Positions 1 through 11,488 of a stretch of DNA of 11,488 bases are shown piece by piece (within the stretch, counting starts at the first letter, position 1; every line of letters begins with the position of its first letter). The stretch covers positions 1 to 11,488 of the forward strand of contig JAPLNJ010000734.1 of NCBI GenBank assembly GCA_026692885.1, written 5' to 3'. The DNA is from Planctomycetota bacterium (GTDB lineage: Bacteria > Planctomycetota > Planctomycetia > Pirellulales > Pirellulaceae). Below the pieces are notes generated by a model. The model saw nothing but the letters and a program-made list of their open reading frames with translations. It was not told the DNA's origin and ran no database searches. Position numbers and translations under genes: made by a program.

Positions 1-74
1 AGCAACGGGGAATGTGTCTGTCCAGTTGGGCCTTGATCGGAACTGTCGGAACCTTGCGAAAGACTTGGAGCAGG
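1..74. other. Left-edge non-coding stretch
   Basis: No convincing gene is visible here. The octamer GAATGTGT at 10-17 has its exact reverse complement ACACATTC at 151-158, on the far side of the large palindrome at 75-150. The two octamers could therefore be the outer arms of one repeat element of about 150 bases. At eight bases each, chance cannot be excluded. Confidence 0.3.
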
Positions 75-150
75 GTGGCGGGGGGCTGAGCCTAAGCGAA
101 GCCCCAGTCCACTGTTGCTGGGGCTTCGCTTAGGCTCAGCCACCAGCCAC
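75..150. repeat. Long perfect palindrome, REP-like element or bidirectional terminator
   Basis: The arms 84-107 and 118-141 are perfect reverse complements over 24 bases around a 10-base loop (108-117). Pairing continues outward through 75-83 and 142-150 with two mismatches, giving about 31 pairs out of 33. The arm core reads AGCCTAAGCGAAGCCCC. Neither side is followed by a T-run, so this is not a standard intrinsic terminator. It lies about 200 bases past the stop of the minus-strand HzsA-related gene. A dispersed palindrome that may also end transcription is the likeliest reading. No second copy was seen in this window. Confidence 0.75.
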
Positions 151-164
151 ACACATTCTTGCCA

Positions 165-356
165 GCCATGACAGCAGTTCGCAGCCTTACGATCAAGGCC
201 TCCAGTTGTCACGACAATTCCCGACGCCAGACAGTCGGTCGGGGCCTTGCTCGGAACGTTGCGCACCGTAAGCGCGAACGCCGCGGCGGCCCCCGCCTTG
301 GCAAGCGTTCGGCGAGTAATCTTCTGGTCGGGCAGCGTGCGCTCCTTGGGCTCGCC
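165..356 (-). pseudogene. Possible remnant of a Tat-exported protein gene (doubtful)
   Basis: Directly after the TGA stop of the HzsA-related gene the same frame stays open through this stretch. Codons at 270-320 read ITRRTLAKAG followed by an Ala-rich hydrophobic run ending AFAL. This resembles a twin-arginine signal: a paired Arg, a Leu two residues later, a Lys and then an Ala/Gly-rich core. There is no ATG, GTG or TTG in frame before the motif, only ATT at 318-320. The residues beyond it do not look like a folded domain and run into the palindrome at 75-150. It may be the 5' end of a gene that lost its start and body, or a chance pattern in GC-rich DNA. Confidence 0.2.
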
Positions 357-2981
357 TCACTGCGGTACGTACCAGAACGTCTTCCAGTACGCCTTGTCCA
401 TTTCAAATGGATCGACAGACGCAGCGAAATCATGGTCCACCGACAGCACTCCGTAGCGGATCATTTCCCGGACATAGTCCCGGCGCGGAACGAATTTGAC
501 CGGGCAGTTTGCGCCGTTGTTCGGACTGGGATTGATCATGCAGAAGCGGTTGTTCTCTTCCAGAATATGCCTCCGTCCACGAGCGACGGCAGCGACGATG
601 GCCAGATAGTCCAGGTCGGTTTTGTCCCGGAATACGGGTCCGCCGGACTTGGCCTGACAGACGCCCAGCCCACCGGCTGTTTTGGCCAGCGGCGCGCGAG
701 CCGCTTTCGACAATTCCGGGTACGACAGATTGTAGATCAGATGTCGATTGAACCGGCCACCGTCTTCGGACATCGTATGCGCGAGGTACCTGTTCTTCTG
801 AAATTCTTCCGGCGGGTAGTAGCGGACATAGAAGTGCGCCGGGAGTTTGTACGTGCCGATCTGCCGTTCTGTTTCGGTCGGCGCGTGGCACCCGTCGCAG
901 CGGCGGCTCATGACTTCGACCAGCGCCTGAGTTTCCGGCCACTGTTTGTCGTTGCGAACGTTGACGCTGTGCTCGTAATAGCCGATCGTGCCGTGACTAT
1001 TGACCGCATAAGTTCCCGCGTGATTGGCGCCGGCGTCCAGCCAGTGGCGAATGATCTTCTGCTCATGCTCCGGCAGGTTGACGCCTTCGTGCCCCTCTTC
1101 GATCAGCTTGAGCAGGCGGCTGGAACCAGTGCCGATGGCGTACGGTTCAAAGTTACTTTTGCTGTGTTCGGAATACGGCAGAATAATCCGGTTGTCGCCG
1201 AACAGCTGCCGCCAGGACATTTGGAGATAACCGATCGGGTAGAGCGGGCCCCAGTGGCCGGAGATGTTAAACCCGCCTTCTTCGCGGTCGTGGTTGTGGC
1301 ATTCCAGGCAGTGCTTGTCCAGGATCGGCTGGATGTCCCGCAGAAAATCGAAGATCTCCGGCACACCGGCAACCGGTTCGAGATTGGCGGGCTGCGTCCG
1401 CAGCAGGTGGAGCAAGCGGTCGCGGTCGCCGGCGCTGGGCGTCTCGGTTCGTTTTTCGTGGCAGCCGATACAGGTGGTGTTTTCGCCCGGCATGACGGAC
1501 GTGAACGAGTGCATACGCTTCACGCAATGTCCTTTTTCGTCCATCGCGAGGAACAGAAAGCTGCGCACCGCCGGCAGTTTGAAATAGGCGCTGCCGTCTG
1601 CGGAAACCGGGACGGAACCGATCAGCCGTTCGACGGAAAACGTACCCCCGGCGGACATTTCGGACATCGCGCCGGCATAGTTAATCGGCTTGGGCAGAAC
1701 CTCGTAGACGAGCAGTTTCTTGACCGTGCCCGGTTTGACGTTCTGCATCTTACGGCCACGGTAAATGTTGACCAGCGCCAGGGTGCCCTGTTCGGCAGAC
1801 GGGTCGGTCTGGTCGGCGATAACGGGTTCTCGCTCGCGCTGCATCACCGGCCGCGGTTCGCCAATCCAGTATCCCGCGGTGGCCAGTTCTGCGGGTAATC
1901 GGTACAGCACCTCGGTTTCGCCCTGGCCGTTCAGCAGTTCGATTGCGGTTTTGTTGGCGACCAGGAAATGGTTTTCGCTGAACGCCCACGGGTCGCAATG
2001 GAGATTGTCTTTGCTGATGTACCGAACGCCTTGGGGGTCGTCCGGCCCGAGTCGTGGATCAATGAGCGCGATTCGGCCGTAATGCTCGCGCAGGCCGTGG
2101 CCGGGTGACCAGGTCACGACCAGCTTGGGACTGTGCGGAACCGACTTCGGAGCCAGGATCGTGCCGTGGTTGATTTGGTTGCCGTAGAGCACCATTTGGC
2201 GGGTGCCGTCGGGGTTCATCGACCAGAGATGATGATAGCCCATGTGAAAGCGGTCCACGTATTCCCAACGCTGGTACGCGACCTGACCGTTGGACAGCGC
2301 CCAGGGCGTGTTGTCGTGTTCGACATTGGCCGACAGCGCGCGGATGCTGGTTCCGTCCGCGTTGCATTTGTACAGCGTTCCGACCTGCGTCATCCAGCAT
2401 TGAACATAGCGATTCGCCCGCGTGGAACAGAAAATGATCTGGTTGTCCGGCAGGTACGTGGGCTCGAAGTCGTCCCATCCGGGCGGGGAGTATGTCCTGT
2501 AATCTTCCATTCCGGGCGAAACGTCCTCGCCCCGGCCCGTCAGTTGTTTCAGGCCGGTGCCGTCGAGATTGATCTCGTACAGACTGTAATGCCGTCTGCC
2601 TTTGGGCAGGTAGGCAAAAAGGAGTTTTTGGGCGTCGTAATACAGCTGCGGGTCGCGGACGTTACCCTCGGGGTCTTCGAAAATCGTGCGAATGGTCTTT
2701 GTCTTGGCGTTGTAGATGCACAGCTTTCCGCCGGAATTCATGGGGAACGTGGTCTGGCACTGGTCGGTCGAGTAATACGCGATGTTGGCGTACCAATGGC
2801 CGTCGATGCTGGGCTTGCGAACAGCGAACAGGACTTCGTCGGGCATGCCGGCGTCGCGGAATGAACCGAGCATCGACGGTTTGTCGGCGGCGGGCTTCTG
2901 TTCCGACGTCTGGCCGAACGCGGGGGGAATCAGAAATAGGGGAATGAATAACAGCAGAACAGGCAGGGTTCTGGAAGACAT
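357..2981 (-). CDS. HzsA-related exported multihaem protein
   Basis: The chosen ATG at 2979-2981 gives 874 residues and puts a signal peptide at the N-terminus (MSSRTLPVLLL through about residue 24, then TSEQ). A longer ATG at 3083 would add 34 residues ahead of it and bury the signal. Residues about 45-400 look like a TolB/PD40 beta-propeller, with NxDGT-type blade motifs near 136-148, 205-217 and 255-266. A middle domain like that of the hydrazine synthase alpha subunit follows (about 405-505). Three c-type haem sites are CIGCH 504-508, CLECH 558-562 and CDGCH 695-699. The protein should be periplasmic and bind haem covalently. In anammox bacteria the relative helps make hydrazine, but other planctomycetes carry many such paralogues of unknown reaction, and no partner hzsB/C gene is present here. 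No clear ribosome site precedes the start. The gene runs away from the toxin-antitoxin pair on the same strand. Confidence 0.85.
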   Translation of the reverse strand: MSSRTLPVLLLFIPLFLIPPAFGQTSEQKPAADKPSMLGSFRDAGMPDEVLFAVRKPSIDGHWYANIAYYSTDQCQTTFPMNSGGKLCIYNAKTKTIRTIFEDPEGNVRDPQLYYDAQKLLFAYLPKGRRHYSLYEINLDGTGLKQLTGRGEDVSPGMEDYRTYSPPGWDDFEPTYLPDNQIIFCSTRANRYVQCWMTQVGTLYKCNADGTSIRALSANVEHDNTPWALSNGQVAYQRWEYVDRFHMGYHHLWSMNPDGTRQMVLYGNQINHGTILAPKSVPHSPKLVVTWSPGHGLREHYGRIALIDPRLGPDDPQGVRYISKDNLHCDPWAFSENHFLVANKTAIELLNGQGETEVLYRLPAELATAGYWIGEPRPVMQREREPVIADQTDPSAEQGTLALVNIYRGRKMQNVKPGTVKKLLVYEVLPKPINYAGAMSEMSAGGTFSVERLIGSVPVSADGSAYFKLPAVRSFLFLAMDEKGHCVKRMHSFTSVMPGENTTCIGCHEKRTETPSAGDRDRLLHLLRTQPANLEPVAGVPEIFDFLRDIQPILDKHCLECHNHDREEGGFNISGHWGPLYPIGYLQMSWRQLFGDNRIILPYSEHSKSNFEPYAIGTGSSRLLKLIEEGHEGVNLPEHEQKIIRHWLDAGANHAGTYAVNSHGTIGYYEHSVNVRNDKQWPETQALVEVMSRRCDGCHAPTETERQIGTYKLPAHFYVRYYPPEEFQKNRYLAHTMSEDGGRFNRHLIYNLSYPELSKAARAPLAKTAGGLGVCQAKSGGPVFRDKTDLDYLAIVAAVARGRRHILEENNRFCMINPSPNNGANCPVKFVPRRDYVREMIRYGVLSVDHDFAASVDPFEMDKAYWKTFWYVPQ

Positions 2982-3206
2982 TGGTAGTGCCCGTCGTGGT
3001 TGAGAATGAACAAGGTGTAATGCCCGCTCTCGGCTGCATTGCACCCCAGGTCGTAGATCGGGCAAGGCGACAGTGGGTGCCACCGCGGCTCGCCATCGTC
3101 GCCACGCAAGAACTGTTTGGAGCTAATCTCTCCGGGGATCTCCGCTCCGTTGCGAATAGACCATCGGTCAGCAGGTGGGCGTCACTGAACGAACTCCGTC
3201 CTTACG
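2982..3206 (-). other. Spacer between antitoxin and HzsA-related gene, with a protein-like open frame
   Basis: No complete gene is assigned. On the minus strand one frame is open from a TGA at 3182-3184 down to a TGA at 2930-2932, 83 codons, and it crosses the start of the HzsA-related gene in another frame. Its upstream part reads like real protein, for example ISSKQFLRGDDGEPRWHPL and GHYTLFILNHDGHYQ. It has no ATG or GTG, and the first possible start is a TTG at the Leu of FLRG. It could be the worn tail of a lost gene or chance. The promoter of the HzsA-related gene should lie here, but I see no clear -35/-10 pair and no T-rich terminator after the antitoxin. Confidence 0.25.
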
Positions 3207-3530
3207 CTACGCCCTTTTCCGCACCGGGACGAACCGAATTTCTACGCGTTTGTTCAGCGCCCCAGCGATCCGGCGGAGCATCGCCAACGAGTGCCCCTCG
3301 TAATCCGAATCCTCCAGACGGCAAATCACCGAAGCCGTGGTGCCGACGAGCTTGGCCAGCGCCCGCTGAGAAAGCCCGGCTTGGGCGCGAAGGTCGTAGA
3401 TCTTGCGGGCGATTTCCGCATTCGCCTCTTCCGCCGCCAAGAGAGCTTGCATTTCAGACTTGTTCCGAAAGTATCGCCGATCCAAGATTTCAACCGCATC
3501 GGTTGTGGGCTGGTGCTTCTTGCCCGGCAT
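3207..3530 (-). CDS. Xre/HigA-type antitoxin of a type II toxin-antitoxin pair
   Basis: This is a 107-residue protein starting at ATG 3528-3530, preceded by AGGAG seven bases upstream. Residues about 46-98 form a helix-turn-helix of the HTH_3/Xre kind: the stretch LRAQAGLSQRALAKLVG, then TTASVICRLE as the recognition helix, then the supporting helices through ALNKRVEI. The acidic, Ala-rich helix before it (about 24-45) is typical of antitoxins paired with Gp49/HigB-like toxins. It should bind its toxin and repress the shared promoter. The reading frame looks whole. The toxin frame, truncated relative to its family, overlaps its first 41 bases. It may now act only as a transcription repressor. 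Confidence in the family is high, but the state of the pair is less certain. Confidence 0.85.
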   Translation of the reverse strand: MPGKKHQPTTDAVEILDRRYFRNKSEMQALLAAEEANAEIARKIYDLRAQAGLSQRALAKLVGTTASVICRLEDSDYEGHSLAMLRRIAGALNKRVEIRFVPVRKRA

Positions 3531-3732
3531 GATTACGGCTCCTGATAAGTGGACCGACCCGGAGTTCATACACGCCGTCCCGCAAGTAGTCCGCTTCTGG
3601 CCTGCGCAGCTCATGTCCTTCGGCGCGGAGGCGACTGATCCGTACGCGGCACTTGGCCTTGGTTCTTGCTGGCAGGCCGTCGATCCACTCCAGGAGAGGC
3701 ACCGATCCGTCGTCCTCCCGGTAGAAAACCAC
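3490..3732 (-). CDS. RelE/ParE-superfamily (Gp49/HigB-like) toxin, C-terminally truncated
   Basis: From a GTG at 3730-3732 the protein has 80 residues and starts VFYREDDGSVPLLEWIDGLP, the usual opening of Gp49-like toxins. The match continues through RRPEADYLRDGVYELR at about residue 57. Family members are normally about 105-120 residues and go on with strands of the type NYRILYFF, which carry part of the RNase active surface. Here only about 12 more codons separate that point from the antitoxin ATG. The frame instead continues as VGPLIRSRNH and runs 41 bases into the antitoxin gene. This looks like an internal deletion of roughly 100 bases, so the toxin is probably inactive. An ATG at 3813 in the same frame would add 27 unlike residues and lies upstream of the promoter candidate, so GTG is preferred although its ribosome site is weak. 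Confidence 0.7.
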   Translation of the reverse strand: MVFYREDDGSVPLLEWIDGLPARTKAKCRVRISRLRAEGHELRRPEADYLRDGVYELRVGPLIRSRNHAGQEAPAHNRCG

Positions 3733-3765
3733 GTTGGTTCTGGGCCTGCTCGTCCTCGTCGTGGT

Positions 3766-3794
3766 ATGTTCGCGTTCCTGCGAACGAATGTCAA
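3766..3794 (-). promoter_or_regulatory. Candidate promoter and operator of the toxin-antitoxin pair
   Basis: On the minus strand a perfect TTGACA -35 box (3789-3794) is followed after 17 bases by GAACAT (3766-3771), a weak -10 box matching three of six positions. Between them lies a palindrome, GTTC at 3774-3777 and GAAC at 3782-3785 around CTGC, with flanking TTC/GAA. An operator between -35 and -10 is where an Xre-type antitoxin would bind to repress its own operon. The toxin GTG follows about 34 bases downstream. Confidence 0.4.
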
Positions 3795-3847
3795 GCCTAC
3801 CTGCGCCCACCATCTGCGTCCACCATCACCACCATCAACACGGGTAC

Positions 3848-3876
3848 TTGACCGTGCCGGGTTCTATCGCCAGAAT
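3848..3876 (+). promoter_or_regulatory. Candidate sigma-70-type promoter of the vWA/PKD operon
   Basis: TTGACC at 3848-3853 and CAGAAT at 3871-3876 are separated by 17 bases and match the consensus at five and four of six positions. This is the best pair I see in the divergent region 3733-4061. It would give a leader of about 180 bases before the ATG at 4062. Transcription could also begin nearer the gene, for which no good box pair was found. Confidence 0.35.
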
Positions 3877-4024
3877 CGTGACATCCCTCGCGCTCCTTCT
3901 GCGACCGAAAGGGTGGAGTCGTTGCTAGTCGGCCTGGACAGGGTGCCCGCCGATACGGCTGACTGACATCGTTCCCACACCCAGGTCGGTTGGTTTCGTC
4001 TCGCCTTCCGGTTGACGTGTTCCT

Positions 4025-4048
4025 GTTCCTGTGTTGGTTCCTGTGTTG
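4025..4048 (+). repeat. Two perfect tandem copies of a 12-base unit
   Basis: GTTCCTGTGTTG occurs at 4025-4036 and again at 4037-4048, with a partial copy just before (GTTCCT from about 4019). It lies directly upstream of the ribosome site GGAAAGGGAA of the vWA/PKD gene. It may be a slipped-strand duplication or a binding site in the leader. Copy number could vary between strains. Confidence 0.6.
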
Positions 4049-4061
4049 GAAAGGGAACGGT

Positions 4062-6233
4062 ATGTATTTCCGGCGATTTGGTTGGACCTTGGTGTGCGCG
4101 TTGATCGTCACAGGCACACCGGCGCTTGGGCAGGTTCCCGGAGAGGGCCAGCCACCTGCGTATTACGTATTAGTCGATACGTCCGGCTCGATGAACGAGA
4201 TGCCCCAGCCTCCCAAGGTGCCCAAAGCTTGGAGCAAGACGATCCTGGCGGAAGTGAAGGAGCAGTTGGGTAATTTCTGCAGCTCGCTGCCTACTGGCAC
4301 GGAAGTGGCGGTCTTCTCCTTTGATGAAAAATTCGTCGAAGGACCCCACGTCGTGATTGCGGGCGACAAGCAGCGAGATCGGTTGCGGCAGTACTTCTCC
4401 GGCTTGAACGCGACGGGGGGTTCTACCCACCTCTGGCGTTCGACCGGCCAAGTGCTGGAACGCGCGGCCGAGGCGACTCGCCGCGAGCCAGGCAAGACCG
4501 TGCAGGTGCTGCTCTTCACGGATGGCGAAGATAACGATTCCAGCCATCCCGATCCAGACCAGGTCCTCGCCCCGTACGATGCCTTGCTGAAAGAACGCAT
4601 CCGACCGTCGTTGGTAACTCTGGGGTTCAAGCTACGAGCTGATCTGTTGCCAGCGCTGCAACGACACCATGTGGACGTTCATCCCACCGTTGATCCGGAG
4701 ATGCTGATCCCGTTGTCGCCTAGCATCAGTTGGCACCCTTCGCAGCCGGTGGTCGGCGAGGAGGTGCAGCTCGTGGATCATTCGGGTGGTTTCATCACCG
4801 AATGGAGATGGACGTTTGGTGACGGCAGCAGCAGCCAGGCCAAGGCGCCGACGCATCGCTATGACAAAGCGGGATCTTACGACGTCCAACTCACCATCCG
4901 CGGGCCGGCCGGAAAGACCAAGAGCGTCAAACAGACCGCGATCATCGTCCCCCCGGAGACGCTGCAGGCTGGTTTTCAGAAGCCGCCGCAGGAGGTGCCA
5001 GCGGGCGCGCCGATCCAGTTCTTCAATAACTCGCGAGGGTCGGTGCATGGGTTCGCTTGGGACTTTGGCGACGGGACCGTGGATACCACGGCACAACCGA
5101 CGCACGCGTTTGCCGGACCAGGCATCTACCCGGTGCGTCTCACCGTGACTGGCAAAGACGGCCGTACGAATGTGTATACCGAAGAGGTCCGTGTGGTCGG
5201 TCCCAAGCCGCCGGTGGTGGACTTCTTCTGTGTCTCCTCGGCGCAAGCCGGGGAGTCGGTGCAGTTCTTTGACCGCTCGCAGGGCCTGGTCGATGCCCGG
5301 CGTTGGAGTTTCGGGGACGGGTCGTCGGCGGCCACCGAACGCGACCCGCGTCACACGTTTGTCAAGCCGGGCACGTGCCAGGTCGAGCTTACGGCGAGCG
5401 GACCCGGCGGCAAACAGAGCCGCGTCCGTGAACTGCGGATCTTGCCGCCCCAGTCGCCAGTGGCCGCCTTCGTGATTGGCGCCACCGATCCGCGGGCCAA
5501 AGACGTCATCGTATTCACCGACATCTCAAAAGGCCAAGTCGCCAGCGCCGTGTGGGATTTCGGCGGTGGCAAGGACACTATGGAGGTTAATTATGATGCC
5601 ACCAGCAAGGACGACGCGAGGTCCGTCAAGCATTGGTACGACGAGCCGGGAAAGTATACCGTAACGCTGCGGGTCCGGGGGCCGGGCGGGGAGCACCAAC
5701 AGGAGCAGAGCCTATCGGTTCGCAAGCCAGAGGGTGGGACGGAGAATGGGAACGAGCCGGACGAGCCGCCGCCCTCGGAGCCCGGCGCATTTTCTTGGGC
5801 TTGGTTGTGCGCCGCCGCGGTCGGGGTTCTGATCGCTGCGGGTCTGCTGTGGTACGGCAATCGCCGTCGCGCGGAGAACGCCGTCCTCGGACAACTAGCT
5901 CGACTGGACGGTGTCATGCACTGCCGCCCGACCAACCTGCCAGGGACCGGCTGGCACTCGTTCGAAGTACCCGGCGGTCCTCCGCGTTTCACCTTTCGGC
6001 CGTCGGATTCGCTGCCCGCCGTGGTCGCGACCGAACTGCCGCTGGAGGCCGTATTGCGTGTCTCCGTCGACCGCCACAGCCGCCGAAAGAGTTACAGCTT
6101 GGAACTTCACGAACATCGCCGCCTGAGACAGACACTGCCGATCGAACCCGGAGTCGAGGTCACGGAGGGCGATTTCGTCTATAGATACTTGCCCCACACG
6201 AGGCCACTTGAACCGCCCGGCGATGTCAAGTAA
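4062..6233 (+). CDS. Exported vWA protein with four PKD domains, one membrane span and a cytoplasmic tail
   Basis: The ATG at 4062 follows an AAGGGA-type ribosome site and gives 723 residues with a clear signal peptide (MYFRRFGWTLV to about residue 24, ALGQ). An upstream ATG at 3990 would put 24 residues before the signal. A von Willebrand A domain spans about 33-225 with an intact metal site: DTSGS 39-43, Thr122 and Asp154 in FTDGE. Four PKD domains follow, marked by WTFGDGS 250-256, WDFGDGT 333-339, WSFGDGS 415-421 and a degenerate WDFGGG 497-502. An acidic Pro-rich linker leads to one membrane span (about 577-598), then NRRR and a 120-residue beta-rich tail I cannot name. The vWA and PKD parts should lie outside the inner membrane and bind a metal-dependent ligand, with the tail inside. 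It heads the plus-strand operon. Domain calls are sure, the role is not. Confidence 0.9.
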   Translation: MYFRRFGWTLVCALIVTGTPALGQVPGEGQPPAYYVLVDTSGSMNEMPQPPKVPKAWSKTILAEVKEQLGNFCSSLPTGTEVAVFSFDEKFVEGPHVVIAGDKQRDRLRQYFSGLNATGGSTHLWRSTGQVLERAAEATRREPGKTVQVLLFTDGEDNDSSHPDPDQVLAPYDALLKERIRPSLVTLGFKLRADLLPALQRHHVDVHPTVDPEMLIPLSPSISWHPSQPVVGEEVQLVDHSGGFITEWRWTFGDGSSSQAKAPTHRYDKAGSYDVQLTIRGPAGKTKSVKQTAIIVPPETLQAGFQKPPQEVPAGAPIQFFNNSRGSVHGFAWDFGDGTVDTTAQPTHAFAGPGIYPVRLTVTGKDGRTNVYTEEVRVVGPKPPVVDFFCVSSAQAGESVQFFDRSQGLVDARRWSFGDGSSAATERDPRHTFVKPGTCQVELTASGPGGKQSRVRELRILPPQSPVAAFVIGATDPRAKDVIVFTDISKGQVASAVWDFGGGKDTMEVNYDATSKDDARSVKHWYDEPGKYTVTLRVRGPGGEHQQEQSLSVRKPEGGTENGNEPDEPPPSEPGAFSWAWLCAAAVGVLIAAGLLWYGNRRRAENAVLGQLARLDGVMHCRPTNLPGTGWHSFEVPGGPPRFTFRPSDSLPAVVATELPLEAVLRVSVDRHSRRKSYSLELHEHRRLRQTLPIEPGVEVTEGDFVYRYLPHTRPLEPPGDVK

Positions 6234-6283
6234 AATTTCGTCGCGTGGGGGGGCGGGGAGGATCATTTGAAAGGGCATAGCTA

Positions 6284-7747
6284 ATGGCTGGTGGCGTTCC
6301 GGAAGAAGGCCAATCGGTCGGTTCACGAATCGAGTGGGGCAGCGTAGGTGAAAGCCACTGGGATCGGATCAGTCCTCGCGAAGGCCAACTACTGGACGAG
6401 TCCCGCGGTGTGGCCCGCACGGCAGAGCCGCTGGTCACCTACTGTGTTCCGCCGCCAGGTTCGTTGCGGATTTGGCGCCGGATTGACGGCGACAAGTACG
6501 AGATGGACCTAGGCGTTGACGACCTGCCGCCCTACGAGACCCTCTACGACCTGTCCGTCCGATTGACGAAGCGCGCCGTAACACAGGGCGGAATATTCGC
6601 CCAAGACGATTCCGATCTGAAGAAATTGGATCGGGTGGCCGATCAGCTACTGCGGATCGCGGGGCGACTGCACGCAGCCCGCTATTCGGTGGGGCTGCTG
6701 CATCCCAGGAATATCCTGATCCTGCAAAGCCCGGAAGGCGAGGAGTTGATTCTCCCGGATGTGGGCTTCGTGTGGCGTCCAGGCGGCCCGATGCTGCCGA
6801 ACTGGCTGGTCCGCAACAGCCCGTTCCGGGACCTATGGGACCATACCGCCGAGACGATGAACTCGCAATTGCAGGAAGCGCACGGCAAGTTCTCCCCTCA
6901 GTCGGATCTGCATACGCTGGCGAGGGTCTTTGCCTGGGCTTTGCGTGCGCGTCCAGCCATGGAAGGTTTGCCGCGATATGCGCGGGAACCCAAGATGCTG
7001 CCGACCTTCGCGGAGGATCCCCAGACGCGAGCCCTGGTTTGGGCGCTGCTGACGGAGGTGCTCGGTGACGAGATCCAGTCGGCGGAGGAGTTGCGGACCG
7101 AACTCGCCAAGACGCCGCTCAGTGCACATTTCATCGAAAAGCCAGCTAGCGAGGAGTTGCCTTCCACGCCTTGGCGGCGGCGGGCGGCAGTCGGCGGCGC
7201 AGCTGTGCTCGTTCTGCTCCTTGTGGGTGCGGTCGGCTATAAGATTTGGATTGATCGCACTCTACCGCTGGCGTCCCCGCCAGGTTGCGAAGACTGTCCC
7301 GGGGAAACGAAGCTCCGCGAGGAATTGGTGGAACTTAGTCAGGCCGTTGAGTCTTGGGACGCCCTCACCGCGAAACGGAAAGCGGGCCTTGCGGACAGCG
7401 CGGAGATTGCCGCTCAGTTGCAGGCGGAGTTAGGGGAGTTGGACCGGCAAGTGAAGCGGCTGACGGCGCTGCACCAAATCCAACTGCACCCGAACAAACA
7501 TTTCCGGGCCAAGGAAGATGCCTGCTTGGCCAAGCTGCGTGGCGAATTCGAGGAGCGGCTGACTTCCGCCGTCAATAATTTGCGTGCCGACTTGCGTGCG
7601 GTCGGCTACCGGGGCCGCGAGGCGTGCCCGCTGCTTGCCGATTTGGACCGCCAACTCAAAGAGTATTGTGCCCTTTCTCCCACCCAGGAGCCACCTTCAT
7701 GTTCCACGAAACTGAAAGCCCTTGCCGAACGATTTGGCTGCCGCTAG
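6284..7747 (+). CDS. Membrane-anchored pseudokinase-like protein with cysteine-rich outer coil
   Basis: The 487-residue protein starts at ATG 6284, with AAGGG eight bases upstream and 50 bases after the previous stop. Residues about 45-280 resemble a Ser/Thr kinase fold. VGLLHPRNILIL (136-147) sits where the catalytic loop should be and keeps Asn143 but has Leu138 in place of the catalytic Asp. DVGF (159-162) stands for DFG, and SDLHTLARVF (207-216) for the DxYSLG helix. No glycine-rich loop or clear ATP-binding Lys is evident, so it is probably a pseudokinase. WRRR then a hydrophobic span (about 301-322) suggests the kinase half is cytoplasmic. The outer half (about 323-487) is predicted coiled coil and holds seven of the eight cysteines (335, 338, 414, 448, 462, 473, 486). 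It probably relays signals between the membrane and the neighbouring vWA protein or GTPase. The kinase-like assignment rests on motifs only. Confidence 0.65.
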   Translation: MAGGVPEEGQSVGSRIEWGSVGESHWDRISPREGQLLDESRGVARTAEPLVTYCVPPPGSLRIWRRIDGDKYEMDLGVDDLPPYETLYDLSVRLTKRAVTQGGIFAQDDSDLKKLDRVADQLLRIAGRLHAARYSVGLLHPRNILILQSPEGEELILPDVGFVWRPGGPMLPNWLVRNSPFRDLWDHTAETMNSQLQEAHGKFSPQSDLHTLARVFAWALRARPAMEGLPRYAREPKMLPTFAEDPQTRALVWALLTEVLGDEIQSAEELRTELAKTPLSAHFIEKPASEELPSTPWRRRAAVGGAAVLVLLLVGAVGYKIWIDRTLPLASPPGCEDCPGETKLREELVELSQAVESWDALTAKRKAGLADSAEIAAQLQAELGELDRQVKRLTALHQIQLHPNKHFRAKEDACLAKLRGEFEERLTSAVNNLRADLRAVGYRGREACPLLADLDRQLKEYCALSPTQEPPSCSTKLKALAERFGCR

Positions 7748-9033
7748 TGTTCTGTCTCGTCTCATCGCTGGGCGTTTGCGCCTGGTCTCAGGATGCACCC
7801 GCACCCAAGCCTGCCGCCGATCCTTTCGCGGATCTTGCACCTTCTGCGGCGACTGCCGTTGCGGCCGTGGACCCGGCTGCTGGCGGTACTAATCTGGTGT
7901 TGGCCGTCAGTGCTAAGCCCAGCGAGAACAAGGACGACCTGGAGCATTTCTTGGCCACCGGTCTGCAAAAAACGGAAGGTGTGGCTTCGGGCAAGCCCAT
8001 TGCGGACGAAATCTCTCGTGACTTCTATGAAACGGTCGCCACGGTGGCCATCAAGGGATTCCAGGGCAGGAAGACGGCGGCCACGGACGTCATTCTGGAA
8101 CCCTACCTGAAGACGAGCGAATACTGGACCGTCCACTTGAAAAATCCGGAACATGATCTGCAATCGCTCACGTTGATCATGGATGACGGGAGCAAGAAAG
8201 AGTTCAAGCCCGGGGATACCGACGGTCGACTGAAGTTCCGTTCGCTGGGGGGATACAGCCTGAAGCTCGATCCCGAGTGGAAGATCAAGTCCTACCAAGC
8301 CACGGTCTTCGTCAACGACCAGGACAAGACGGGGACGGCACTCGCGGAAGAAGTCTGGCCGCAGTCGCGGTTGCGGTACTGGCTCGTCGAAGTCCCGGAC
8401 TTCGTGGGGGGCGATGCCGGAAGGCAGCGGCTGTTCGGCACCCTCACCAATTCTAAGAAGATGCCGAATCCGCTAGTCAGTGTCTCCAACGCCCGCTCGA
8501 CCACCATCGTCGTGGCTAGTTTCGTGTCGGACGTACCCCGTCCGGGGCTGCGTTTCGTGGGGAATCGGGTGACCTTCTGGTTCCCGCCGTTGCCGGATCG
8601 GCACCCCAAACGCGTGGTCATGATGTTCCCCCTGACGGACAAGGATTGGGAGTCGACGCTCGAGACCTATGCCAAGCTGGGGGTCGGAGAGAAGGCCGGT
8701 GCGGAACTGTCGAAGATGATCCACGCGAATTGGGTCCCGCAGGACTCGCCCTCGGTGCTGAACACCAGCTCTCCGGCGCGCTGGTATGACATTCCCGCCG
8801 TGCCCAAGACCCAGCCGACCGATCCGGATCGGGGTTTCGAGCGAGAGTTTGTGCTGGAGGATATCCCGGGCTGGAAGGCCGCCGCCCTCCAGAATGTCTG
8901 GCGGCTGTATGCCTACGAGTTTGAAGATGCCACGGAATCAGGACTGATCCGGATTGACCATAATGGCAAGCCGGTTTACGTGGCGGACGAGAAAGTTGAC
9001 CAGTGGCCCATTGAGGTCAAGACGCTGCAATAA
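7699..9033 (+). CDS. Exported beta-rich protein of unknown family
   Basis: The ATG at 7699 has AGGAG eight bases upstream and begins a signal peptide (MFHETESPCRTIWLPLVF to about residue 30, AWS before Gln31), giving 444 residues. A longer ATG at 7624 would place 25 unlikely residues ahead of the signal. The start lies inside the pseudokinase gene, which ends 49 bases later, so the two are probably translationally coupled. An Ala/Pro-rich linker (about 31-65) follows the signal. The rest is mixed with many short strand-like segments, aromatic pairs and DPEWKIKSYQATVFVNDQD-type stretches. I find no catalytic motif, lipobox, membrane span or repeat. It should sit in the periplasm or at the surface, near the vWA/PKD domains and the cysteine-rich coil. 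I do not recognise the family. A structural or ligand-binding partner is a guess. Confidence 0.8.
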   Translation: MFHETESPCRTIWLPLVFCLVSSLGVCAWSQDAPAPKPAADPFADLAPSAATAVAAVDPAAGGTNLVLAVSAKPSENKDDLEHFLATGLQKTEGVASGKPIADEISRDFYETVATVAIKGFQGRKTAATDVILEPYLKTSEYWTVHLKNPEHDLQSLTLIMDDGSKKEFKPGDTDGRLKFRSLGGYSLKLDPEWKIKSYQATVFVNDQDKTGTALAEEVWPQSRLRYWLVEVPDFVGGDAGRQRLFGTLTNSKKMPNPLVSVSNARSTTIVVASFVSDVPRPGLRFVGNRVTFWFPPLPDRHPKRVVMMFPLTDKDWESTLETYAKLGVGEKAGAELSKMIHANWVPQDSPSVLNTSSPARWYDIPAVPKTQPTDPDRGFEREFVLEDIPGWKAAALQNVWRLYAYEFEDATESGLIRIDHNGKPVYVADEKVDQWPIEVKTLQ

Positions 9034-9042
9034 CTTGGCCAC

Positions 9043-9086
9043 TTGACACGCGAACGGCGGAGCGGGACGATCGATCCCGACCGCCG
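9043..9086 (+). promoter_or_regulatory. Hairpin and possible internal promoter ahead of the GTPase gene
   Basis: The 138-base gap after the exported protein gene is the longest in the operon. It holds TTGACA (9043-9048) with GACGAT 17 bases later (9066-9071, three of six matches). A hairpin overlaps this: CGGCGG (9055-9060) pairs with CCGCCG (9081-9086), and CGGGA (9063-9067) with TCCCG (9075-9079), around CGATCGA. No T-run follows, so a standard terminator is unlikely. It could be an internal promoter with an operator, an attenuator or an RNA processing site. Confidence 0.35.
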
Positions 9087-9171
9087 CCGCTAGGTAATCG
9101 CTGTGCGCCGCGATGCGTCGGTTGCGTTCTTTCCTTCCCCGTTTGTTGGCTGCGGAGTGGGAGTGTGTGCT

Positions 9172-11232
9172 ATGTCCCTGACTCGTGAGGAATGTCCGCT
9201 GGTGACGGACGAACTGTTTACGACGTTCCAAAGGCTGGAGCAGCAACTGGGGGCGGTGCAGGAGAAGTTGTCGAACCTCTGGCAGGCTTTGGTCAAAGAA
9301 CACGAAACCGAAGAGGAAGAAGCCAGGAAAGCTTCCCGCAGTGGCAGGTCGCGGGACAAGCCGCAAAGCCTGCGCGCCCGCTTCGAACTGCTGCGGGCAG
9401 AGGTCACCAAGAAAACCTACCGCGTGGGCTTTATCGGCCGTTCGCAGGTTGGTAAGTCTACGACCGTCAACAACGTGCTCGGCGTTCGCCGCGACGACGT
9501 GCCGGGACCGCCGTCGACGGGCGGCGTCGGCGTCGCCGCGACCTCGACGCCCACCAAGGTTCATCGGGTAGAACCGGGCCAGCCCGCGACTTGCTCACTT
9601 CGTTTTCGCAGCAGCAAGGAGCATCGGGAGTGGCGCGATGCGCTCTGCATCCATGTGGGGGTCGATCCGGAGAATTCGGACGCGGCCTTGATCGCCAAAC
9701 TGAACGCCCTGCTCGCCCAGCCCTGCGATTCCGTGACCACGACCCATTTCCGCCGCTACTTACTGCGGTTCCTGTCCAGTGCCCTTAAGTTTGGCGACAG
9801 CCTCGTCAAGGAGGAACCGCTTACCGAACTCGGCGACTACGAAAAGCGGGCGCACTACACGAACCATGCCGAGGGAGCGGACGCCAACAAATATCAATTA
9901 CTGCGGGAGGTCAACTTAGGATTCCCCAGCAATCACATCGACCAGAAGCTGGAGATCATCGACCTCCCCGGTTTGGGCGCCGGCGGGGATATCGACGACA
10001 TCCTGACGCAACAGTATCTGCCGGTGCTCCACGGGGCGCTGGTCTTCCAGAGTAGCGAACACGTGGGGTCGGCCGAAGCCTATAAACTGCTCGACCTGCT
10101 GCGCAGGCAGTGGCGGGAGTTGCGGGGGCGGGCTTGGATGGTGGTCACCCGGTTCGACTCGATCGGCGGTCCTCAAATTCATGGCGAAGCATTGAACCAC
10201 CGCACGATCTTGGATTCCATCGGGGATACGCTGCGACAGCACCAACTCGCTCCCGAGCAGGTGATGCTGGTTGGAAATGGGATCTACGAGAAATTGCTAG
10301 ACTTGGGCAAGAGCCAGAACGAATGTGACGAGGAGGATATCCCCGAACGATTCCGGCAGCACGCACACCTTGCGGACCAGTACCTGGAGGTCTTGAAGGA
10401 TGGTGGCATCTCGAATATTCGCCACGCCGTCGGCCATCGACTGGCGCAGATGGTCGAACGCGAGGTGCAGGAAAATGTGCGGCGGGAGATCCGGGAACTG
10501 ACCAACGATTTGGTCAGTCGCGTGGAGACCGCCAAGCGGCAGGCCCAGATGAGCCGCAAAGAGTTTGGCCTGGCCCGCCGTTGGCGCCAGCAGGTCCGCA
10601 ACCTCGCCAATCAGTTGGACAACGACCGTTCCATTCTGGAAACACCGGCCGTCAAACTGCGCACCGGACTGCGGGAGGTGCTGGACGAACACTGCCCCCC
10701 TGACAACCTGCCCGCCAAGGACGATATCCCGCGGGACCACGCGCACGACATGCCGCACATGATCGACACCGCCCAGGAACGGGTGGCCACGGAGATTCTG
10801 CCGGAACTCCTCCGGGACATCCGCCGTCGGCTGGAGACGGCCGCCAGTCAACAGAATCTGGATCTGCAGTTGGCCATGCCCGGCGGCCAATCCCCGCTGG
10901 AACGCTGGGACAAACTGTGTGCGCCCGACTTGGCCGACGAGAGCTGGTACAGCTCCCCTTTGAGCAGCTTTAAGAATCCACCCTTGTTTCCGGATGATCC
11001 GGAACAAGTTCGCGACTTCCTCGCGCCCCGGGAATATCGCGACATGATGGAGCACAAGGTCCACGCCGTGGCGTGCCAGACGATTCAGATCATCTACAAC
11101 CGCCTCAAGCAACGGCTCGAAGGTTTGGGTATCGAACTCAGTTCGCTGGGGGATGACGAACATGTGGACCGAGTCCAGGACGTGACCACCTTCGATTCCA
11201 TAGTCCAATTGTTGCGAGAGATACCACTATGA
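9172..11232 (+). CDS. Dynamin-like large GTPase
   Basis: From ATG 9172, with GGAG eight bases upstream, the protein has 686 residues. An in-frame GTG at 9103 is less likely because it precedes this ribosome site. An N-terminal helical, charged region (about 10-75) leads to the GTPase domain: P-loop GRSQVGKST (89-97), a Thr-rich switch TSTPT (124-128), DLPG (264-267) and VVTRFD (324-329) in place of N/TKxD. The long spacing of about 165 residues between P-loop and DLPG contains an inserted helical segment (about 145-250). The C-terminal half (about 400-680) is nearly all helical with heptad-like stretches, as in bacterial dynamin-like proteins. No membrane span is seen, so membrane contact would be peripheral. 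Such proteins remodel or tether membranes on GTP binding. Its stop overlaps the next gene's start. The GTPase call is firm, but the dynamin subfamily is an inference from architecture and size. Confidence 0.8.
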   Translation: MSLTREECPLVTDELFTTFQRLEQQLGAVQEKLSNLWQALVKEHETEEEEARKASRSGRSRDKPQSLRARFELLRAEVTKKTYRVGFIGRSQVGKSTTVNNVLGVRRDDVPGPPSTGGVGVAATSTPTKVHRVEPGQPATCSLRFRSSKEHREWRDALCIHVGVDPENSDAALIAKLNALLAQPCDSVTTTHFRRYLLRFLSSALKFGDSLVKEEPLTELGDYEKRAHYTNHAEGADANKYQLLREVNLGFPSNHIDQKLEIIDLPGLGAGGDIDDILTQQYLPVLHGALVFQSSEHVGSAEAYKLLDLLRRQWRELRGRAWMVVTRFDSIGGPQIHGEALNHRTILDSIGDTLRQHQLAPEQVMLVGNGIYEKLLDLGKSQNECDEEDIPERFRQHAHLADQYLEVLKDGGISNIRHAVGHRLAQMVEREVQENVRREIRELTNDLVSRVETAKRQAQMSRKEFGLARRWRQQVRNLANQLDNDRSILETPAVKLRTGLREVLDEHCPPDNLPAKDDIPRDHAHDMPHMIDTAQERVATEILPELLRDIRRRLETAASQQNLDLQLAMPGGQSPLERWDKLCAPDLADESWYSSPLSSFKNPPLFPDDPEQVRDFLAPREYRDMMEHKVHAVACQTIQIIYNRLKQRLEGLGIELSSLGDDEHVDRVQDVTTFDSIVQLLREIPL

Positions 11233-11488
11233 TTACCTACGTGGATTTCAATAACGTCTACCAGCGGACGGATATCCGCCCATCCCCAGACCACCGTTCC
11301 CTAGCCCGCGAATTGGTCCGAGACCTGAAACTGGACAGCGAGGCCAACGTCGAAAGTTTTCTGCTGATCCTGTCTTGGCCCACCAAGCTGAGTTACCTGC
11401 GCATCCACGCGCGTCACGGCAGGCCTACCGCGGTTGCCTTCAAGGAGGACCGCAAGGAACTCCGCGAGTTGTTCAAGAAGTACGGCGT
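11229..11488 (+). CDS. Unknown protein, 5' part only
   Basis: The ATG at 11229 overlaps the GTPase stop in an ATGA junction, which points to coupled translation and a related job. The first 86 residues are visible and the frame is still open at the window edge. It begins MITYVDFNNVYQRTD without a signal peptide or membrane span. It is mixed alpha/beta and rich in Arg, Lys, Asp and Glu, ending in a charged helix (KEDRKELRELFKKYG). It should be cytoplasmic. I do not recognise a family from this part. Confidence 0.7.
   Translation, partial: MITYVDFNNVYQRTDIRPSPDHRSLARELVRDLKLDSEANVESFLLILSWPTKLSYLRIHARHGRPTAVAFKEDRKELRELFKKYG

Follow-up and report, generated by a model that had tools for sequence, protein, structure and literature searches.

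A candidate trans-envelope cluster of receptor, pseudokinase and large GTPase genes in a Pirellulaceae contig

The gene cluster considered here lies in a stretch of 11,488 nucleotides from a Planctomycetota bacterium of the family Pirellulaceae (GenBank assembly GCA_026692885.1, contig JAPLNJ010000734.1, positions 1 to 11,488 of the forward strand), referred to below as the window, and consists of five co-directional genes, g1 to g5, at positions 4062-11488 of the + strand. It is proposed, with a likelihood put a little under even, that g1-g4, together with g5, encode one trans-envelope signalling device in which an outer receptor acts on a cytosolic GTPase switch. The gene order, the domain types and the single transmembrane (TM) helix in each of g1 and g2 are observed. 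Given an outer receptor, a membrane-spanning dead kinase and an inner GTPase, an allosteric relay that sets the state of the GTPase would be the simplest reading. Outside the inner membrane, the vWA domain that g1 carries on a stalk of PKD repeats, the exported-looking g3 protein and the outer, helical part of g2 would bind a ligand or each other. Ligand binding would alter how the tail of g1 and the pseudokinase of g2 are paired on the cytoplasmic face; the pseudokinase, perhaps still able to bind a nucleotide, would be the allosteric relay loading or releasing g4; and the GTP state of g4 would be the output, perhaps by way of g5. For this scheme we infer the membrane side of each part, all physical contacts, which way the signal runs and what GTP does. 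If the parts do make one device, a signal from outside would reach a large cytoplasmic GTPase via a kinase-fold protein without the catalytic residue, and neither pseudokinase relays in the membrane nor large GTPases controlled from the envelope are, to our knowledge, well known in bacteria. The wider proposal of a bacterial trans-envelope GTPase system, so far undescribed, in which a vWA/PKD receptor and an exported co-receptor would control a GTPase of dynamin-like architecture via a dead kinase, as a counterpart of phosphorylation-free receptor-to-GTPase signalling, is to be regarded as doubtful.

The assignment of g2 as a membrane pseudokinase is supported by the comparison of profiles. 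A profile of the part of g2 and of its sole relative, P0006, that precedes the TM helix (298 match columns) was compared by hhalign with 11 bacterial kinase domains, that is, with 11 of the 13 fetched stretches, the two without the catalytic-loop pattern having been left out. The score was 46.8 over 228 columns, with an hhalign probability of 86.8. By comparison, column shuffling (200 runs) gave 14.7 +/- 2.6 with a maximum of 27.0, reversing the profile gave 17.3, and other cluster proteins gave 12.0 and 12.7 with the kinase profile. In the alignment, GLLHPRNIL of g2 corresponds to the catalytic loop (HRDxKPxNIL) and PDVG to the DFG motif, and the position of the catalytic Asp of HRD is occupied by Leu both in g2, as aligned by hhalign, and in P0006, as read through its alignment with g2. 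The catalytic-loop Asn and the Asp equivalent to that of DFG are kept in both proteins, so that the loss of the one residue with the retention of the other two is consistent with a conserved role other than catalysis. With PADLOC, g2 weakly matches MkoA (E 0.035) at residues 116-160, on the catalytic-loop stretch of the kinase alignment. Beyond the TM helix, g2 is predicted by AlphaFold2 (AF2) to be helical, at a predicted local distance difference test score (pLDDT) mostly of 50-65, and Cys335, Cys338 and Cys414 are identical in P0006. The CxxC motif just past the helix (7286-7297) and Cys414, conserved in the sole relative, may form a disulfide or a metal site.

The relatives were sought with g2, g3 and g4 as queries in a database of 5.8 billion proteins, where about 8,000 candidates sharing most short words with each query were scored (7993, 7998 and 7990, respectively). 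Each query found itself and one other protein, namely P0006 for g2 (47% identity over 97% of the length), P0004 for g3 (44% over 89%) and P0002 for g4 (47% over 99%); because only word-sharing candidates were scored, distant relatives may be missed, and 'rare' is to be understood at the given sensitivity. For each of these three proteins the contig given is an NCBI one of 13,141 bases, so that they probably share a single contig. Since the three sole relatives are listed on contigs of identical size, g2, g3 and g4 seem to travel together, which supports their being a three-gene core. Scans of a kind that detects only close relatives gave 15 and 82 pattern matches for g4 in genome contigs of 84,980 species (two scans) and 24, 22 and 25 for g4, g3 and g2 in viral contigs, none of them confirmed, and tblastn, of the same reach, found nothing on plasmids with g2, g3 or g4 and nothing on phages with g4.

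The spacings between the successive genes are +50, -49, +138 and -4 bases, the last being an ATGA overlap of the g4 stop with the start of g5, which is truncated by the contig end. The window seems to be a whole contig, its own proteins being listed on one of 11,488 bases. The five open reading frames are judged to be genes and not chance frames, because g1 matches Pfam domains, g2, g3 and g4 each have a relative, and the g5 fragment, scored by the codon usage of g1-g4, looks coding, with 0.269 in frame, while the two remaining forward frames give -0.479 and -0.215 and the best reverse frame 0.031. It is the spacing that suggests one transcription unit for g1-g5; the predicted sigma-70-like sites in the window number 2 against 2.1 expected, and the terminator-like sites 8 against 10.6 expected. 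The window contains no Rfam match at the gathering score and no tRNA.

The first gene, g1, encodes a receptor-like protein in which Pfam finds four stretches of PKD_4 (7.3e-52) and a VWA_2 domain (1.7e-9; 38.7 bits against a cut-off of 27) with all three of the motifs given in Table 1, which we take to be those of the vWA metal site. Its N terminus resembles a signal peptide by eye only and is not flagged by the hydropathy scan (19-residue window, threshold 1.5). The tblastn search of plasmids with g1 gave 55 records, none of which covers 80% of the protein and all of which are below 60% identity; since 19 of the 20 matches listed start at residue 196 or later (the remaining one at 79), these matches mirror the PKD repeats, and most are named PKD domain-containing proteins. 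An earlier note, made from the letters of this DNA, had claimed five co-directional genes with the above gaps and overlaps, a vWA/PKD receptor and a membrane pseudokinase, and the layout was confirmed, as were the receptor, by the vWA domain with complete metal-site motifs, the four PKD repeats and the one TM helix, and the pseudokinase, by a kinase-profile score above the shuffles, the one TM helix and the Leu at the catalytic Asp position. Its further claim of one unit was supported for g2-g4, whose relatives are probably on one contig, and this support does not extend to g1 and g5.

Table 1. Positions of the genes, domains and motifs of the cluster in the window
Feature	Position	Strand	Description
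g1, receptor-like protein	4062-6233	+	723 amino acids; vWA, four PKD repeats, one TM helix, tail of ~125 residues (Pfam, motifs, TM scan)
vWA domain, g1 residues 35-171	4164-4574	+	Pfam and motifs DTSGS, TGGST, TDGED
Four PKD repeats, g1 residues ~219-556	4716-5729	+	PKD_4 (Pfam)
TM helix, g1 residues 578-596	5793-5849	+	Hydropathy scan; basic NRRR soon after
g2, putative pseudokinase	6284-7747	+	487 amino acids; kinase-like domain, one TM helix, outer helical domain; relative P0006
Kinase-like domain, g2 residues 15-289	6326-7150	+	hhalign against 11 kinase domains
Catalytic-loop/DFG region of g2	6701-6766	+	HPRN keeps Asn; Leu at the HRD Asp position; DVG replaces DFG
TM helix, g2 residues 301-319	7184-7240	+	Hydropathy scan; basic residues N-terminal to the helix
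Outer part of g2	7286-7744	+	CxxC, then predicted helical region (low-confidence model)
g3, exported-looking protein	7699-9033	+	444 amino acids; hydrophobic stretch at residues 11-29; relative P0004
g4, large TRAFAC-type GTPase	9172-11232	+	686 amino acids; relative P0002
G1 motif of g4	9436-9459	+	GRSQVGKS
G3 motif of g4	9961-9972	+	DLPG
G4 motif of g4	10147-10158	+	TRFD
g5	11229-11488 (contig end)	+	First 86 codons, open; no domain assignment

A number of observations weigh against the proposed device. Even at E 10, Pfam gives no kinase domain in either g2 or P0006, the AF2 model of g2 is poor (pLDDT 42.7), and Foldseek with this low-confidence model gave 0 of 339 at E <= 0.001, the best (E 0.024) being an Hsp70 fusion; the MkoA match of g2 was not found in P0006 with the PADLOC models. 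The AF2 model of g3 is also poor (pLDDT 31.9). In this analysis the core is known from two examples only, the evidence of co-occurrence covers g2-g4, and the support for a common device lies at the level of sequence and gene order.

The profile-comparison scores assign g4 to the TRAFAC-type GTPases: for the profile of g4 and P0002 the score was 49.6 against Der, 45.7 against Era, 37.2 against three aligned RdcA-type proteins, 35.1 against MnmE, 31.8 and 26.9 against two Lactococcus proteins and 28.4 against YfjP, the shuffle maxima being 19.3-26.5 (40 shuffles for each target). The G1, G3 and G4 motifs are common to g4 and P0002, and comparison with this relative speaks for the start codon taken for g4. 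The earlier note had also named g4 a dynamin-like GTPase, which in the strict sense was not borne out. In Pfam, g4 gives 21.8 bits with Dynamin_N (cut-off 27) and 21.6 with MMR_HSR1 (cut-off 21.9), equal and both below the cut-off, and P0002 gives 18.4 with Dynamin_N, whereas 67.0 bits are reached by RdcA, 53.2 and 50.1 by the two Lactococcus proteins of the dynamin family and 44.3, 31.4 and 22.3 by the housekeeping GTPases Der, Era and MnmE. The LeoA model of PADLOC matches g4 at 1.5e-8 and does not match P0002, while the same model gives 2e-14 for E. coli Der and 5.9e-8 for Era; among dynamins, it gives 3.2e-5 for RdcA, 3.1e-14 for one Lactococcus protein and no match for a Nostoc dynamin-family protein, and is a poor separator of dynamins in either direction. 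Because Der outscores g4 on both the Dynamin_N and the LeoA profiles, the dynamin assignment is unproven, and g4 is best described as a large GTPase of dynamin-like architecture that may or may not belong to the family. The architecture is seen in the distance between G1 and G3, which is 175 residues in g4; the three RdcA-type proteins have 160, 164 and 160, against 47 each for Era, MnmE, YfjP and Der (second domain). This comparison does not take in the two Lactococcus proteins, where the G1 pattern was not found. The RdcA-type proteins have 742-821 amino acids against the 686 of g4. As a separate observation, the LeoA and LeoBC models of PADLOC hit housekeeping GTPases, LeoA those just given and LeoBC MnmE at 1.3e-9, and weak matches to these models are not evidence of defence; caution is needed that weak Dynamin_N or LeoA matches are not read as dynamin or defence.

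The dynamin question bears directly on an explanation that shares with the relay all parts except the output, namely that g4 is a true bacterial dynamin, recruited by the pseudokinase, which would bend, tether or fuse the inner membrane when g1 and g3 report envelope stress, in the service of membrane remodelling or repair. This is considered rather unlikely. The G1-G3 distance and the length of g4 resemble those of RdcA-type dynamins and not of Era-type GTPases, and the RdcA-type profile score exceeds its shuffle maximum of 22.6 in an alignment spanning 591 columns. However, single Der and Era sequences match g4 more strongly, its Dynamin_N score is far under those of RdcA, the Lactococcus proteins and Der, and in the hydropathy scan g4 shows neither a TM helix nor any strongly hydrophobic stretch. 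In bacteria, according to PMC6104087, dynamins usually occur two or more to an operon, while here one GTPase is seen, followed by the truncated g5. The bacterial dynamin-like proteins treated there (RdcA/CrfC, LeoA, Cj-DLP1/2) are likewise large GTPases with a long G1-G3 stretch, and the 4-base overlap of g4 with g5 is like that of rdcA with rdcB in K-12; the difference is that the profile scores of g4 are unspecific and, on Dynamin_N, lower than dynamin-family proteins reach, that the g5 fragment has no similarity to RdcB, and that no GTPase pair is seen. As a side observation, the dynamin-family genes at three other loci (L013, L014 and L015) overlap the next gene, of the rdcB/YjcZ type, by 4, 4 and 23 bases, and on the two plasmids among them a patatin-like phospholipase gene comes next, which looks like a conserved cassette.

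A vWA/GTPase-type conflict or phage-defence system, in which the receptor would sense infection and the GTPase or g5 would be the effector or its gate, is improbable. The few relatives, and the pair of helix-turn-helix (HTH) and Gp49-like genes directly upstream, may be held in its favour, yet Pfam, which presumably contains DO-GTPase and GAP1 models, recognises no GAP1, DO-GTPase, MoxR or effector domain in g1-g4 or the g5 fragment. Such conflict systems centred on vWA proteins and TRAFAC GTPases are described by Kaur et al. 2020 (PMC7159879); the GTPase-centric (DO-GTPase/GAP1) ones are like the present cluster in having a TRAFAC GTPase, often with membrane components, and one subtype, reported from planctomycetes among others, has beta-sandwich repeats, which are FNIII there and PKD here, the difference being that Pfam matches to DO-GTPase and GAP1 are missing here from g1-g4 and the g5 fragment. 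The words pseudokinase, PKD and dynamin are absent from the accessible main text of PMC7159879. The defence role considered in the earlier note gained nothing specific: LeoA, the sole notable PADLOC match, is shared by Der and Era and absent from P0002, and no match or confirmed relative was found for g4 on plasmids, phages or viral contigs or for g2 and g3 on plasmids or viral contigs. The control in which Der, Era, YfjP and MnmE were run led us to reject the LeoA or defence reading of g4. The comparison of g1-g5 with PHROGs gave nothing above chance (best E 0.038, for g4). Another function would be surface adhesion or polymer uptake, in which g1 and g3 would bind protein or carbohydrate on the exterior while the inner parts provide the anchor and the power. 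The combination of vWA and PKD repeats is common in adhesive and polysaccharide-binding surface proteins, and the names of the g1 plasmid matches agree with this, but no hydrolase, transporter or porin is recognised in the cluster by Pfam, g3 and g5 being without assignment, and the pseudokinase and GTPase point to regulation, so that we hold such a function to be quite improbable. Least credit is given to a chance neighbourhood, in which the unit is only g2-g3-g4 and has nothing to do with g1 and g5, or each gene stands by itself: the evidence of co-occurrence leaves out g1 and g5, and 138 bases separate g3 from g4, but the sole relatives of the three core genes are listed on contigs of one identical size and the genes overlap by 4 and 49 bases, which makes chance very improbable.

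The trans-envelope relay may also be set beside other known systems. The triads of the TerY-P type consist of vWA, kinase and phosphatase proteins; the likeness is a vWA domain beside a kinase-fold protein, whereas here the vWA protein looks exported, the kinase is without the catalytic Asp, and Pfam gives no PP2C match in the cluster. The LeoA defence system, known as Eleos, differs in that g4 has no specific LeoA or LeoBC match. For the gene set as a whole, no description was found by title or the start of the abstract in a literature with few subscription journals; the earlier note had not recognised it as a described one.

Among the less characterised parts of the cluster, g3 has no known domain in Pfam, and profile comparison led to the rejection of an overlooked domain of the PKD, vWA, kinase or g1-tail type, since the scores were 17.1, 15.4, 12.0 and 10.6 while shuffling reached up to 17.3, 22.6, 21.3 and 17.1, respectively (30 shuffles each). 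Upstream of g1, on the - strand, the overlapping Gp49-like (DUF891) and HTH genes occupy 3207-3813, in a layout that is presumably that of toxin-antitoxin pairs of the HigBA/RelE type. Further upstream, at 357-3083 of the - strand, a large protein is encoded with an HZS_alpha middle domain (PF18582, 1.8e-19) and three CxxCH motifs. Its identification as a hydrazine synthase was rejected, with 63.5 bits against the NCBIfam cut-off of 800, and its weak relatives, of 26-28% identity, are on 4 plasmid records, all from Bacteroidota genera.

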